A stretch of DNA of 64,000 bases from contig DYLS01000006.1 in assembly GCA_020721965.1 (NCBI GenBank), positions 8,387 through 72,386 on the forward strand. The letters are read 5' to 3'. Shown piece after piece: positions 23,559 to 31,499 of the stretch. The notes under the pieces were generated by a model. The model saw only the letters and a program-made list of their open reading frames with translations. It was not told the DNA's origin and did not search any database. Made by a program: the position numbers and the translations under genes. How positions within the stretch are numbered: position 1 is the first letter of the stretch; each line of letters opens with the position of its first letter. This DNA comes from Blastopirellula marina. Lineage in GTDB: Bacteria; Planctomycetota; Planctomycetia; Pirellulales; Thermoguttaceae.

Positions 23559-24998
23559 TCATTTCCCGATGCAGAATCGCGAAAAGACGCGATCCAATAT
23601 ATCCTCCGTATAAACGGCTCCGACAATTTCTCCCAAACTCTCTAATGCGGCTCGCAGGGATGCCGAGAGATATTCGTCCGCGAGAGAGTCTGTCGCGAGT
23701 GCGAGTGCCTCATCCAGTGCGGAGAGGGCGAGGTCCAAGCATCGCCGGGTGGCGGAGGCGACAGAAAGAATCATCGGTCGGGACGAGGCATGTTGGGACA
23801 GAAACGAGACAATTTGATTTCGTAGGAATTGGATTCCTTCGCCCGTCGCCGCGCTTGTCAAAACGTCGGGCTGAATGCCTGGAGGAAAGGCCCATCCTTC
23901 GGTCAGGTCACACTTCGTGGCCACCAGCAAACAACGACTTCGAACACCGGTCACGAATGCCCGCTCCGCCTGGCTGACTACCGAACGGCAATCCGTACAA
24001 AATAGCAGCAGGTCGGCGGACTGGGCGGCATTCTCGGAGAAACGCCTTGCCGCAATATCGGGAGGAAGGGGATTGGCCTCGGACGAGCCATCATCGGGCG
24101 ATCCATCGCGTTTGAAGGCGGCTGGAAGCGGCCGCGGCTCTGCTGACATGGAGAAATCCTCAACCCCGGCGGTGTCGATCAGCAGGATCGGAGTCCCCTG
24201 CCATTCCGTCTCAGCAGCCAGGCAATCGCGTGTCGTGCCCGGCAAGTCCGCCACGATGGCCCTCTCGCCCTCGAGCAGGGCGTTGAAGAGGCTGCTTTTG
24301 CCGACGTTCGGGCGACCCAGGAGTACAACTCGATGGCCTTCCCGAGCGTCGCTGCGCGCGTGGAGACCGCCAAGCAGGTTTTGGAGCTGGTCCCGGGCAT
24401 GGCGCAGTCGCTGTTCCACGTCGGAGCGAGAAATGAAGGTCAGATCCTCATCGGCGAAATCCAGTCCGGCCTCTAGCTCCACGAGCAGATCCAGCAACTC
24501 TTCGCGAAGCCGACGGATCGGGGATGCGATTCCCCCGGCCAGTTGCCGCAGCGCTGCCGCAAGTTCGCCGTCGTTGCCAGCCGCGACCACGGCCGCGACG
24601 GCCTCGGCCTGACTCAGATCGATTCGCCCCGCGAGAAATGCCCGCAGTGTAAATTCGCCAGGTCGGGCCTGACGAACCATCATTTCAGCAAGGCAAGCCT
24701 GGAGCAGCACGGGGGAACCGATAGTGTGAATCTCAGCGCAGACCTGCCCGGTATAACTCCGCTGCCCCGGCCAATACAAGATCGTCGCTGGCCAGGGTTG
24801 TCGGATGTTCTTCACCTTCAACAAGGCCGGTCGCACGAACGGCTCGGAGAGCGGCGGGGCCTCGCTATCGATAGGGAACTCCGCCACGCGGATTACCGCT
24901 TGCCAAGCGTCCGGCCCGGTGACTCGAAGAATCCCTCGCGCCCCACATCCCAATGGCGAGGCCACGGCGGCGATGGTGTCGTCCCAGCCCGTGTCCAT
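23559..24998 (-). CDS. mnmE: tRNA modification GTPase MnmE (TrmE)
   Basis: DTIAAVASPLGCGARGILRVTGPDA; GRPNVGKSSLFNALLEGERAIVADLPGTTRD; C-terminal FCIGK. ORF opens 25025. Confidence 0.95.
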   Translation of the reverse strand: MDTGWDDTIAAVASPLGCGARGILRVTGPDAWQAVIRVAEFPIDSEAPPLSEPFVRPALLKVKNIRQPWPATILYWPGQRSYTGQVCAEIHTIGSPVLLQACLAEMMVRQARPGEFTLRAFLAGRIDLSQAEAVAAVVAAGNDGELAAALRQLAGGIASPIRRLREELLDLLVELEAGLDFADEDLTFISRSDVEQRLRHARDQLQNLLGGLHARSDAREGHRVVLLGRPNVGKSSLFNALLEGERAIVADLPGTTRDCLAAETEWQGTPILLIDTAGVEDFSMSAEPRPLPAAFKRDGSPDDGSSEANPLPPDIAARRFSENAAQSADLLLFCTDCRSVVSQAERAFVTGVRSRCLLVATKCDLTEGWAFPPGIQPDVLTSAATGEGIQFLRNQIVSFLSQHASSRPMILSVASATRRCLDLALSALDEALALATDSLADEYLSASLRAALESLGEIVGAVYTEDILDRVFSRFCIGK

Positions 24999-25021
24999 AA
25001 GCTCGCTCGTGCTCAGGAACT

Positions 25022-27640
25022 TCACATGCGGCGGCGCAGCTTTTCGGGTCTGCGTTTCGGCGTGCCCTTTCGGTCCACTCGCTCCGCTGGTTTAGGGGAT
25101 TTGTCGCCGTCCACCGTTTGCCGCAGACGGCGATCCCATTCTTCGATCCACTTCAAGATCGCTGCCTTCCAACGCCTCGGAGGGTTCCGCTTGGCTTCTG
25201 TAGGCTCCGCTGGTTTCATCTGCAACAGCACGTGCCGCTCGCCCAATCCCCACACGCTGGAGATGATGAAATACAGACACAAGCCACTGGGCACTTTATA
25301 GAATAGAATGCCCATAAACACCATCATGAACGTCATCACTTTCTGTTGCATCGCCGCATTTTCGTCAGCGGGGGGTGGCATCATTTTCTTCTGCTGCCAA
25401 AGGAAAATAATGATCGTAAGAACGGGTAAGAGATTAACATACGGGCCGAGCGCGAACATCCCTTGGCCGCGGTTGAACCATTCAGGCCAGAAATAACTCC
25501 AGTTGAATAGCATGTCGGGTGCCGCCAAATTGGAACACCAGCGAAGGCTTTCCGTAATCAGCGGGGCCTGTCGCAGCTCGACGTCGATCGCCAACGCCTT
25601 GTATAAACCTATGAAAATCGGAAGCTGAATAAAAAGCACAAGACAACCGGAAAACGGGCTGTAGTTGTGACGCCGAAACAGTTCTTGAATCCGCTCGTTC
25701 CGCTCTTGCAAGTCTTTATATTGCTCTTGAATGCGTTTTATTTCGGGCTGCAATTCCTGCATTTTCTGGGCGCTGAGCGTCTGCTTGCGACTAATCGGGA
25801 ACATGCATAGCCGCACAATTGCAGTAAGCATTAAAATAGCCAAACCATAGTTGAAGACTGCATAATCGTGAAACAGGTGAAGCAATCTGGTCATCGGCTC
25901 GGCTACAAACCAAAACCAACCGTATTGGATCAGCCCGTGCAAATCGTACGCGTTCAACAGGTCTTGCCGTTTCGGGCCAAGAAAAATCCTATACTCGTGG
26001 CTGAGAGATTCACGAGGGGCTAGGGTCGCGGGGCGCGAGGTGAGGCGGCAGGATACATTTGTCAAAAACTCATAATTGCGCTCGGGCGTGCCGATGCGGT
26101 AGGGTCGCACGTCGTCGAACCACAGCGATTGGGGATTTTCCTTTTTGGGAATGAGTATGGCCGAAAAGTATTGAGCGTCCACTCCTACTGCCGTGACGTT
26201 CTCGGATTGGTCGTTCCAAGGAACACCGGCCTTGTCCCGCGCGATGGAGTAGCACGATACCAGGCGAAGGCCGCCACTCCCCAGCTTTACGGCAACGTCG
26301 CGAAGCCCAACCGCGGACCAACTGTTGCTCATCTTGCGGGCATACCAGGCGCCCTCTGTCGGCAGCCCATTGGGACCGTCCAACTGGTACGCGACTGCGA
26401 CGGCTCGATCACCGACGTTGAAGCACTCCACGGTAAGTGTCAAATGGTAGTTGGTTTCATCCAGGTTGGATAACTGCGTGGGATCGCCCTTGGCAAGCCG
26501 GTAGGTCTTGGTAAGAACGATGTTCTTGTCGGGCAGCCAGACGCCAAAGCGGATACTGTCCCGAATTCGCTCCGGATGGTCGGTGAGGTCTTGTTCAGGC
26601 CACGCTTGGGGACGCCGTGGATCCACATGCTCCGGTAAGACTCTCCAGACGCGGGTCCGCAGCGATACACCCGGCAATTCCAGTTCCAACTGACGGCGTA
26701 CCAGCTCCTCGCGTTCGACAGGGCTTTGTGTCTTGGCGGTACGCTCTTCCATAGCAAGGCGTCGATCCAAGAGGCGATCCTTATCGAATTGCGCCAGCGT
26801 CGTCAGAAAGGATAATGGTGCCCTCTCTTCCGGTCGGATCAGTTCGAGCGGCATCCTGCGGAGCGTGGCACTAAGTTTCAGCGCGCGGTCTCCCCGCAGT
26901 ACATCGAGGGTGACCGTTTGCCCCGGTCGTGTTCGAGCAAGGATGGCTTTCAGCGAACGGAGGTCCACGACCTTTTGTCCGTCGATCGCGCGGAGAAGAT
27001 CACCGGGGCGCAGCCCTGCCTCAGCGGCAGGTGTACCCGGCCCCACAATATCGACGGGTAAGCCGTCTCCAATCAGGCCCGAATCCCCCACGATGTCGCC
27101 CAGGTACCCCCCCCAATATTCCGTATCGCAATACCGTGGGTTATTCAATTCGACGCGGACGACCGCCGCTCCCTCATTGGAAAGCGTGACCAGCATCCGG
27201 TAGGGCTGGTTCGAATCCAACGTTCCCAGCGTGAAATACGCTGGTGGTGGGTCTGGTGGGGCAGCCACTTGCCGCGGAGGTCTGCCGGGTTGATCCTGAT
27301 GTGCCTCCGGTTGGATCTCGCCCTGGCCCGGTTTTGCGTCGGAGGCAGCCGTGGCCGAGGCCCCCCCCCCATCCGTCGGGACATGCCTTGGGCCGTTCGA
27401 GTGTCGCTCTTTCGATTCACGCTGGGTGCCGCCGTTCTCGCCCTCTTTCCCAGCGTCGTCCGCAGTAGCCTTGCCCGGAACCTTGGCCGGATTGCCCACG
27501 GCCTGCGTGAGATCCTCCTGGCCTTTCTTGGCGAAGCGGGACATGAAATAGAAATTGGCAACAATAATTACCATTGCGAGGGCGAGAAATAGGAAATATC
27601 GCCCAAGTTCTGGTTGATTGCCGTTGGTAGGCTCTAGCAT
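25022..27640 (-). CDS. yidC: Membrane protein insertase YidC with PDZ domain in the periplasmic region
   Basis: Oxa1/YidC core (NYGLAILMLTAIVRLCMFPISRKQTLSAQKMQELQPEIKRIQEQYKD...NYSPFSGCLVLFIQLPIFIGLYKAL) plus PDZ-like VDIVGPGTPAAEAGLRPGDLLRAIDGQKVVDLRSLKAIL at about aa 195-265. Confidence 0.95.
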   Translation of the reverse strand: MLEPTNGNQPELGRYFLFLALAMVIIVANFYFMSRFAKKGQEDLTQAVGNPAKVPGKATADDAGKEGENGGTQRESKERHSNGPRHVPTDGGGASATAASDAKPGQGEIQPEAHQDQPGRPPRQVAAPPDPPPAYFTLGTLDSNQPYRMLVTLSNEGAAVVRVELNNPRYCDTEYWGGYLGDIVGDSGLIGDGLPVDIVGPGTPAAEAGLRPGDLLRAIDGQKVVDLRSLKAILARTRPGQTVTLDVLRGDRALKLSATLRRMPLELIRPEERAPLSFLTTLAQFDKDRLLDRRLAMEERTAKTQSPVEREELVRRQLELELPGVSLRTRVWRVLPEHVDPRRPQAWPEQDLTDHPERIRDSIRFGVWLPDKNIVLTKTYRLAKGDPTQLSNLDETNYHLTLTVECFNVGDRAVAVAYQLDGPNGLPTEGAWYARKMSNSWSAVGLRDVAVKLGSGGLRLVSCYSIARDKAGVPWNDQSENVTAVGVDAQYFSAILIPKKENPQSLWFDDVRPYRIGTPERNYEFLTNVSCRLTSRPATLAPRESLSHEYRIFLGPKRQDLLNAYDLHGLIQYGWFWFVAEPMTRLLHLFHDYAVFNYGLAILMLTAIVRLCMFPISRKQTLSAQKMQELQPEIKRIQEQYKDLQERNERIQELFRRHNYSPFSGCLVLFIQLPIFIGLYKALAIDVELRQAPLITESLRWCSNLAAPDMLFNWSYFWPEWFNRGQGMFALGPYVNLLPVLTIIIFLWQQKKMMPPPADENAAMQQKVMTFMMVFMGILFYKVPSGLCLYFIISSVWGLGERHVLLQMKPAEPTEAKRNPPRRWKAAILKWIEEWDRRLRQTVDGDKSPKPAERVDRKGTPKRRPEKLRRRM

Positions 27641-28221: not shown

Positions 28222-29121
28222 TTGCAGCAAGCCGTTGAAAAAGCCGACGTTCTGATCGAAGCCTTACGGTGGATTCGCCAGTTTCGCGGAAAAGTCACCG
28301 TCATTAAATTGGGCGGCAGTGTACTTCAAGACGCACGGGCGATGACGCACCTGCTGCTCGATATCCTGTTCATGGAAACCGTGGGCATGCAGCCGGTGGT
28401 CGTTCACGGCGGCGGAGCTGCAATTTCGCGTGCGATGGAAAAGGCGGGGCTGCAACCGAAATTCGTCCAGGGCAGGCGATACACGGACGAGCCGACCTTG
28501 GCCATCGTGGAACAGATCTTGGCAGGGGAGTTGGCCCCCCAGTTGGCTCGCGAGATTCAGGACTTGGGCGGAAGTGCGGCGCCGTTAAGCGTTCGGACCA
28601 AAAACGTTCTTCTCGGTCGAAAGGCCGGATTGACCGGCCCCAACGGCGAAACCATCGACTTGGGGCTTGTCGGAGAAGTAACCCGCGTGGATCACGATGC
28701 GATCGCGGAGCTTTGCCGACGCGGGGTCGTGCCAATCATTCCTTCGCTGTGTGTTTCGGAGGAGGATGGTACGAAATTGAACGTGAACGCCGACCTGGCG
28801 GCGATGGCGGTGGCGGTGGCGATGCAGGCCGAAAAATTGGTATTCCTCAGCGATGTCAACGGAGTGCGAGCGAACAAGGATGATCCCAATTCCTTGATCG
28901 ACTCGCTCACCGTGCCTCAGGCTCGGGAATTGATTCGCTCCGGCGCGATCCAGACGGGGATGTTACCAAAGGTCGAGGCGTGCCTGGATACCCTGGCAAA
29001 AGGGGTAAATAAAATCCACATCATCGACGGTCGCCTCCGCCATTCCCTCCTCTTGGAGGTGTATACCACAAAAGGAGTGGGGACGGCCATCAGCCGGAAT
29101 GGGATCGTCAATCCCGCATAG
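28222..29121 (+). CDS. argB: Acetylglutamate kinase
   Basis: [60 protein letters not shown] start. Confidence 0.95.
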
Positions 29122-29193
29122 TCCTCGATCCCGCCCTTCCGCTAAGGGCGTGGAACCGGAGTGCCGTTGGGTTCTTTAGAGTGTGTTTTCCAT

Positions 29194-29225
29194 TCTTGGC
29201 TTTTAAGGCTCTTGGCTTTTACGGC
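29194..29225 (+). repeat. 16-bp tandem duplication in argD leader
   Basis: TCTTGGCTTTTAAGGC (29194-29209) and TCTTGGCTTTTACGGC (29210-29225). Confidence 0.88.
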
Positions 29226-29263
29226 GAAAATATTTCACTATCTTGTTAAGGCGGCTTGAAACC

Positions 29264-30493
29264 ATGTCAGCCACGACTCCGCTTTCCGCGACCGATGTCT
29301 TCCAACTGTTCGATCAATACGTGATCCCGAATTACCGGCGTTTTCCGGTCGTCTTGGTGCGCGGAGAAGGCGTCCACGTTTGGGACAGCGAGGGGAAGCG
29401 GTATCTCGATCTCTTTCCCGGTTGGGGCTGCAATCTCTTGGGGCATTGCCCAACGCCGGTTGTGGCGGCCGTCCAAGAGCAATTGACCCGGCTGATCCAC
29501 GTTCCGAATACCTGGTTTACCGAATTGCAGGGTCTTTGGGCCAAGGCCCTCAGCGAGCGGAGTTTTCACGGTCTGGCCTTTTTCTGCAATTCCGGGGCGG
29601 AGGCCAACGAGGCCGCGATCAAACTCGCCCGCCTCCATCAGGGTCCCGAACGCTATAAGATCATTGTCTTTGAAGGCGGCTTCCACGGGCGAACGATGGG
29701 CGCCCTCTCCGCCACAGCCCAACCCAAATACCACGAAGGCCTGCACCCTCTTCTGCCCGGATTCAGTTATTGTCCCTATGGCGACCTCGAAGCGGTGCGG
29801 CAACGGATCGACGGTGAGACCGCTGCGATCATGATCGAGCCTATCCAAGGCGAGGGAGGGGTGGTTTTGCCGCCGGAGGGGTTTTTGCGTGGATTGCGGG
29901 AGTTGGCGGACGAGCACTACCTGCTTTTGATCTTTGATGAGGTCCAGACGGGCTGCGGACGTACCGGTGAGTGGTTTGCGTTCCAGTATTTCGGCGTGGA
30001 ACCGGACATTATCACCCTCGCCAAGTCGCTCTGCGGTGGTTTACCGGGTGGTGCGATGCTGGCCCGCAAGAAAATTGCCCCCTCGCTAAGGGCGGGGATG
30101 CATGCCTCCACGTTCGGTGGCAATCCAATCGCCGCTGCCGCAGGCCTGGCCACCATTGAAATGATCGAATCGCAGGGCCTGCTCGACCGCGCGAAGACCA
30201 TCGGCACGCACTTTTTGGATCGGTTTCGGGACCTCGCCCAACGTTGCTCGATCATTCGCGAAGTCCGAGGGGCCGGTGTCATGATTGGTATAGAGCTTAT
30301 TGTGGACGGTACACCGGTGGTCGACGAATGCCTGCGCCGTGGCCTCCTAATCAATTGCACGCATGGTCGCGTCATCCGACTCTTGCCCGCCATGACCATG
30401 ACCGACGAAGAAGTCGAGGAGGGCTGCGACGTGCTGTGCCGAGTGATGGAAGAATACGCGGACCAGGGTCCGGCATCCCAAAAAGGTGCTTGA
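29264..30493 (+). CDS. argD: Acetylornithine aminotransferase
   Basis: Class III PLP aminotransferase: FCNSGAEANEAAIKLAR, IIVFEGGFHGRTMGALSAT, LLIFDEVQTGCGRTGEWFAFQ, TLAKSLCGGLPGGAMLARKK. Confidence 0.95.
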   Translation: MSATTPLSATDVFQLFDQYVIPNYRRFPVVLVRGEGVHVWDSEGKRYLDLFPGWGCNLLGHCPTPVVAAVQEQLTRLIHVPNTWFTELQGLWAKALSERSFHGLAFFCNSGAEANEAAIKLARLHQGPERYKIIVFEGGFHGRTMGALSATAQPKYHEGLHPLLPGFSYCPYGDLEAVRQRIDGETAAIMIEPIQGEGGVVLPPEGFLRGLRELADEHYLLLIFDEVQTGCGRTGEWFAFQYFGVEPDIITLAKSLCGGLPGGAMLARKKIAPSLRAGMHASTFGGNPIAAAAGLATIEMIESQGLLDRAKTIGTHFLDRFRDLAQRCSIIREVRGAGVMIGIELIVDGTPVVDECLRRGLLINCTHGRVIRLLPAMTMTDEEVEEGCDVLCRVMEEYADQGPASQKGA

Positions 30494-30563
30494 CCTTTGA
30501 CCAAGCCCCTGAGACTTCGCGTCACGGAGTACGAAACATTCTGCTGCCAAAGGAAACGTGGAA

Positions 30564-31499
30564 ATGACACCCTTCCAGCCCCGCCATCTGTTGACCCTTC
30601 AGAGTCTGACCCGAGCGGAGATCGAGCGGATCTTCTCGATCTGTGAGGACCTGAAAGCGAAGTATTTGGCGGGGACGCGGGAACCCCTTTTGCCGGGCCG
30701 TGTCATGGCTTTGGTTTTCGAAAAACCCTCGCTCCGCACACGCGTCAGCTTTGAAACGACCATGGCTCATCTGGGCGGCAGTTCCATCTTTCTTGGCGAG
30801 GACGCCGGCTTTGGGAAGCGAGAGGCCGTGCCTGATTTCGTTCGCGTGCTCAGCGCCTACGTGGACGTCATCGTCTTTCGTGGCAAACGCCACGCAGTCT
30901 TGGAAGAGATGGCTCAGTACGCGACCTGCCCAGTCATCAATGGATTGACAGACCAATCCCATCCCTGCCAAGCACTCGCGGACCTGTTCACCATGAAGGA
31001 GCTGGCGGGTAAGTTAAACGGTCACACCTTGGCTTGGGTCGGGGACGCGAACAATGTTGCTCGGAGCTTGGCTGAAGGCTGCGCTAAGCTGGGCATGCGG
31101 TTTGTCATGGCGACTCCCCCAGGGTATCGGTTCGATGAGGAGTTTCTTCCACGATTGAAGACCGAAAATCCCGCTTTCGATTTTGACGTTACCGACGATG
31201 CGGCCCATGCCGTGCGCGACGCGCTGGCCGTCTATACCGACGTTTGGGCGAGCATGGGCCAAGAGAGCGAGGCGGAGCAGCGGCGTCGCGATTTCGCTGC
31301 CTATCAGGTCAACGCAGCGCTCATGTCCCACACCCAAAAGGGTGCGGTTTTCATGCATTGTTTGCCGGCGAAACGCGGGGAAGAAGTGACGGATGAGGTC
31401 ATCGACGGACCACAAAGCGTCGTTGTCCAACAGGCTGCCAATCGGATGCACCTGCAGAAGGCCATTTTGGCCTGGCTACTCGGATCGCATGGCATCTGA
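30564..31499 (+). CDS. argF: Ornithine carbamoyltransferase
   Basis: FEKPSLRTRVSFETTMAHLGGSSIFL, NGLTDQSHPCQALADLFT, FMHCLPAKRGEEVTDEVIDG. Confidence 0.96.
   Translation: MTPFQPRHLLTLQSLTRAEIERIFSICEDLKAKYLAGTREPLLPGRVMALVFEKPSLRTRVSFETTMAHLGGSSIFLGEDAGFGKREAVPDFVRVLSAYVDVIVFRGKRHAVLEEMAQYATCPVINGLTDQSHPCQALADLFTMKELAGKLNGHTLAWVGDANNVARSLAEGCAKLGMRFVMATPPGYRFDEEFLPRLKTENPAFDFDVTDDAAHAVRDALAVYTDVWASMGQESEAEQRRRDFAAYQVNAALMSHTQKGAVFMHCLPAKRGEEVTDEVIDGPQSVVVQQAANRMHLQKAILAWLLGSHGI

Follow-up and report, generated by a model that had tools for sequence, protein, structure and literature searches.

The YidC protein encoded in the window analysed here, 64,000 nucleotides of a Blastopirellula marina assembly, contains a complete HtrA-type PDZ domain, formed by residues ~176-263 and inserted into a loop of its periplasmic P1 domain. 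That a PDZ domain is embedded in the periplasmic region of this insertase had been proposed from the DNA sequence alone (the original prediction), and the proposal is borne out by profile searches, fold prediction, phylogeny and selection.

Architecture of the PDZ-bearing YidC

The frame is a single uninterrupted ORF, and its product is a true YidC (Table 1). Pfam models of the membrane core (60KD_IMP, PF02096; residues 598-804, E 1.3e-44) and of the periplasmic domain (YidC_periplas, PF14849; residues 392-584, E 4.3e-13) both match, as do the NCBIfam models of the YidC C-terminus (TIGR03592, 165.5 bits against a cut-off of 84.3) and N-terminus (TIGR03593, 68.8 bits against 58.25). The full-length YidC equivalog models of NCBIfam stay below their cut-offs, as is expected for a divergent lineage. 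The nearly invariant groove arginine R610, in the second TM helix, aligns with R366 of E. coli YidC, and the insertase chemistry is presumably that of an ordinary YidC. With the E. coli protein (PDB codes 6al2 and 3wvf) it shares TM1, the P1 β-supersandwich, the five-TM core, the groove arginine and an adjacent mnmE gene, but E. coli YidC has only a short loop (about residues 88-95) and no PDZ domain at the insertion site. The linker that follows TM1 had been described as acidic; its composition (13 D/E, 12 K/R and 3 H) is instead near-neutral.

The mnmE gene, a usual neighbour of yidC, overlaps it by 4 bases, and the yidC-mnmE order is that of E. coli; rpmH-rnpA-yidD-yidC, the gene order in E. 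coli, is not conserved at this locus. Upstream of yidC, and divergent from it, positions 28222-31499 hold an amino-acid-kinase gene (argB-like) together with genes whose translations resemble acetylornithine aminotransferase and ornithine carbamoyltransferase. Neither yidC nor the region upstream of it had a match in Rfam.

Table 1. Features of the yidC locus, in window coordinates.
Feature	Position	Strand	Basis
mnmE, directly downstream of yidC	23559..25025	(-)	TrmE_N, MnmE_helical, MMR_HSR1 (Pfam)
yidC carrying the inserted PDZ, 872 aa, ATG at 27640	25022..27640	(-)	ORF list, Pfam, NCBIfam
TM1, residues 12-36	27533..27607	(-)	AlphaFold2 helix 12-36
Disordered polar Pro/Gly-rich linker, residues 37-129	27254..27532	(-)	Residues 41-110 pLDDT <50; composition
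First P1 strands, ahead of the insertion, residues 133-175	27116..27244	(-)	AlphaFold2; E. coli alignment
Inserted PDZ domain, residues ~176-263	26852..27115	(-)	Pfam, AlphaFold2, Foldseek, insertion bounds
Carboxylate-binding-loop motif GYLG, residues 178-181	27098..27109	(-)	Order-wide alignment
PDZ signature VGPGTPAAEAGLRPGD, residues 199-214	26999..27046	(-)	Order-wide alignment
PDZ helix α-B, residues 227-235	26936..26962	(-)	AlphaFold2 model
Remainder of P1 periplasmic domain, residues 264-570	25931..26851	(-)	PF14849 392-584; Foldseek to 3blc/3bs6
Insertase membrane core (60KD_IMP), residues 598-804, incl. groove R610	25229..25849	(-)	PF02096; R366 alignment

Three Pfam models recognise the inserted domain above their cut-offs: PDZ_2 (residues 193-259, E 2.4e-13, 50.6 bits against 27), PDZ_6 (residues 199-249, E 3.7e-11, 43 bits against 27) and PDZ (residues 192-247, E 2.7e-8, 34.5 bits against 23.2). 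The order-wide alignment places the start of the domain earlier than these bounds, so as to include the GGYLG loop and the first strand (177-181). The original prediction was thus right to see a PDZ domain in residues 195-265, while missing its first strand and the GYLG loop. Neither Pfam nor NCBIfam matched a protease domain in the protein, and the models of DegP, DegS and MamE gave only partial matches, confined to the PDZ region and far below cut-offs.

An AlphaFold2 model of the full protein, built on an alignment of 74 sequences, has a mean pLDDT of 85.7. It shows the PDZ as a separate fold, mostly at 92-98, with lower confidence (pLDDT 78) for residues 181-190, the strand after the GYLG loop. 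Foldseek aligns the full model with E. coli YidC (6al2, E 1.5e-25) and the P1 domain with the E. coli P1 structures 3blc (E 1.8e-9) and 3bs6. The PDZ domain superimposes on that of DegS bound to a YQF peptide with an r.m.s.d. of 1.4 Å and 32% identity, and across models the r.m.s.d. to the DegS PDZ is 1.4-1.6 Å over ~90 columns. Residues 166-272 modelled alone also adopt a PDZ fold (pLDDT 79.8), with DegS, AlgW, H. pylori HtrA and DegP as the top Foldseek matches; a viral fold library gave no match at E <= 0.001.

The insertion sits in a loop of P1. The P1 strands that precede it in the model (135-139, 149-154 and 159-165) lie in a segment that aligns with residues 58-92 of E. coli YidC; the last strand ends before residue 176, and the next one starts at residue 264. 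The same flanking strands are found in YidCs of sister orders, which read LNDPRYRTLDGDQGPLNVVGNN with a short loop, whereas the PDZ-bearing form reads 'LNSPRY.DLEDRS[GYLG...PDZ...]RPLEVIRPE'. The segment is therefore not a set of ordinary P1 strands. In E. coli YidC the site corresponds to the loop at about residues 88-95. An alignment bridged via sister-order sequences puts its left edge near residue 92, and its right edge lies near residue 96 by motif ('PLELI' with 'PFQLL'), a position at which the automatic alignment is ambiguous. The insertion point thus precedes the equivalent of residues 215-265, the SecF-binding region reported for the E. coli protein (PMC7618853).

Distribution, origin and selection

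YidC was sampled in three rings, comprising the order Pirellulales (n=52), the rest of its class (n=34) and the rest of the phylum (n=35). Within the order, Pfam PDZ_2 matched 49 of the 52 proteins at E <= 1e-3, and a YidC-PDZ profile matched all 52. The weakest match had an E-value of 1.4e-19, and although the profile was made from 36 sequences of this same set, the three weakest matches (1.4e-19 to 6.7e-25) fall outside those 36. No PDZ match was found in the YidCs from the rest of the class (0/34) or of the phylum (0/35), the best E-value of the YidC-PDZ profile among these 69 proteins being 2.7. These PDZ-less YidCs are orthologous and have the same flanking strands (e.g. 'LNDPRYRTLD...PLNVVGNN').

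The source genome is a draft of 380 contigs, and the PDZ might be put down to a chimeric assembly, to a frame error or to P1 strands taken for a PDZ. The same junction, however, recurs across the 52 genomes, some of them single-contig, and the segment is predicted to fold as a PDZ on its own; an artefact, refuted by the homologues, retains practically no probability.

Patterns derived from a 14-row alignment of this YidC-PDZ lineage were also used to scan 84,980 public species genomes across phyla, which yielded 54 loci. In 49 of them PDZ and YidC core lie within one frame. The core was not found in the PDZ frame of four others, which we take to be truncated at contig ends. One locus, from Nocardioides (L175), was rejected as a YidC-PDZ: it encodes a PDZ protein with no YidC core match. 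The other 53 are labelled as planctomycete and include Thermogutta and Bythopirellula, both Pirellulales; the closest named relative of the studied sequence is a Thermogutta MAG. Models of EF-hands match one PDZ-less planctomycete YidC frame from another order of the class (best E 6.7e-6), and P1 or the tails may carry other lineage-specific additions elsewhere. A Phage_integrase match (E 9.1e-5) in one of the 52 Pirellulales stop-to-stop YidC frames is probably spurious.

A tree of the membrane core, calculated by maximum likelihood with the PDZ columns excluded, requires one change of PDZ state, with a support of 100. The domain was apparently inserted once, in an ancestor of the Pirellulales, and has been retained since. 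Within the genome, the PDZ closest to the insert belongs to an HtrA-like protease, as its PDZ1 (the first), which makes an HtrA-type PDZ the likely source of the insert; this is judged from similarity, the ~80 residues of the PDZ itself being too short for a resolved tree. With the PDZ1 domains of DegS, DegQ, DegP and AlgW the YidC domain shares the position of the X-φ-G loop and the order of α-B and β-strands, but it has a shorter loop between the first strands, and its host is an insertase without a protease domain. Site-2 proteases such as RseP and Aquifex aq_1964 (PDZ profile matches at E ~1e-17 to 1e-16) are likewise inner-membrane proteins whose periplasmic part contains PDZs; they are, however, peptidases with tandem PDZs, while YidC has a single one in a loop of a β-sandwich domain.

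Across the Pirellulales, mean pairwise identity reaches 0.62 in the membrane core, against 0.40 in the PDZ and 0.33-0.36 in the stretches of P1 that follow it. Between two close sequences of the genus Thermogutta, dN/dS comes to 0.013 in the core, 0.072-0.126 in those later stretches of P1 and 0.118 in the PDZ. The PDZ is thus under purifying selection, as the remainder of P1 is.

The putative ligand site

The GYLG loop is among the most conserved sites of the PDZ, with G178 present in 51, Y179 in 50, L180 in 45 and G181 in all of the 52 sequences. In the signature VGPGTPAAEAGLRPGD, G202, P204, A205 and G209 are each found in 51/52 and A208 and D214 in 52/52, and the hydrophobic positions 230 and 234 of α-B are conserved in the order. 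By analogy with PDZ domains in general, α-B is taken to be the second wall of the putative groove for the ligand. Residue 182 lies at the position that normally lines the P0 pocket. This residue is H in 17 sequences, Q in 10, Y in 6, N and W in 4 each, D, E, S and V in 2 each, and R, F and T in 1 each. In the same genome, five PDZs of the HtrA type carry GYLGV, GWLGV, AYLGV, AFLGV and GFLGL, with V or L at the pocket position, and the HtrA family has V/I/L after the loop where YidC mostly has H/Q/Y/N/W. In human PDZ domains the loop follows the pattern X-φ-G-φ, the final residue of which has an effect on the P0 residue that a domain accepts (PMC7138185). In our own reading, L180 and residue 182 correspond to the two φ positions; Y-L-G then matches the X-φ1-G portion, and φ2 is V or F in only 3 of the 52. 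In AlgW, mutation of the Val at the pocket position weakened activation by peptide (PMC8545111). Near-invariance of GYLG combined with an altered residue 182 suggests that the ligand site probably survives with a changed specificity.

The groove could also be degenerate. The PDZ would then have ceased to bind peptides and would act on P1 sterically or as a spacer, with the glycine loop kept for folding only. The unusual residue 182, the lower confidence after the GYLG loop and the location of the host loop in a largely tolerant domain (PMC7618853) would all fit, but a mere insert sits poorly with retention in 52/52 sampled Pirellulales at a dN/dS of ~0.12, and with conservation of the GYLG loop and of positions 230 and 234. 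We regard it as unlikely.

C-termini of candidate ligands were compared within the order. Neither those of AtpE nor those of SecG in Pirellulales present a conserved lineage-specific PDZ ligand, and the short hydrophobic tail of SecE was rejected as a ligand, since like ends also occur in a PDZ-less sister order. The SecG tails are long and rich in Pro, Ala, Thr and Glu. In many Pirellulales AtpE, the ATP synthase c subunit, has a signal-peptide-like N-terminal extension (e.g. '...TPAFAQG...') before its first TM segment.

Possible function and significance

The P1 domain of E. coli YidC makes contact with SecD/SecF and probably with emerging chains as well, and tested proteins were still inserted despite large deletions in it (PMC7618853). 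An add-on role of the PDZ therefore fits better than a catalytic one. We propose that the domain serves the insertase as a periplasmic docking arm. The GYLG loop and α-B groove would bind a C-terminal or β-strand peptide of one specific, steady partner, periplasmic or membrane-bound, for which a translocon subunit, a chaperone or a protease adaptor would be candidates, and would hold it close to where segments leave YidC or Sec. Given the altered residue 182, the ligand would differ from the hydrophobic YxF-type tails read by DegS and AlgW. Taken as a whole, a single insertion followed by docking of a specific periplasmic partner is a tentative explanation, to which we give somewhat less than an even chance.

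The original prediction had the PDZ bind peptides and thereby tie membrane insertion to the recognition of substrates or to quality control, which is possible. In its most direct form, the domain would capture newly exported or misassembled proteins by their C-termini or by exposed strands and keep them at the insertase for folding or for passage to proteases. The nearest folds are indeed stress-sensing and quality-control PDZs (DegS, AlgW, DegQ), and within the genome the domain is closest to PDZ1 of an HtrA-like protease. Generic hydrophobic tails, however, would be expected to require the V/L pocket that most of the YidC PDZs lack, and YidC has no protease domain of its own, so that such client capture appears improbable. 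With a pocket that differs from those of HtrA PDZs reading hydrophobic tails, we favour docking of a specific partner over the quality-control reading. It is also conceivable, if rather doubtful, that the Pirellulales insertase is a recruiting platform whose PDZ binds a dedicated partner or client tail with non-HtrA specificity, thereby linking insertion to envelope quality control that is performed elsewhere by separate proteins.

A literature search, with subscription journals outside its coverage, found no paper joining YidC, a PDZ domain and planctomycetes. In the titles and abstracts of papers that mention both YidC and PDZ, their co-occurrence seems incidental, and a phylogenomic study of YidC/Oxa/Alb3 makes no mention of PDZ or planctomycetes; a PDZ within YidC is described in none of these. 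The protein is a normal insertase to which the order has added a domain of its own, an architecture that would show in any Pfam scan. To our knowledge, YidC is nearly universal in bacteria, and no part of it is more variable or less understood than P1. The PDZ provides a conserved marker for the YidC of Pirellulales and a discrete, deletable module for probing the periplasmic side of the insertase, and the order with it and the sister orders without it offer a clean comparison. That P1 acquired a putative peptide-docking domain, apparently once and with no loss seen in the order, suggests that it can host a function open to gain.
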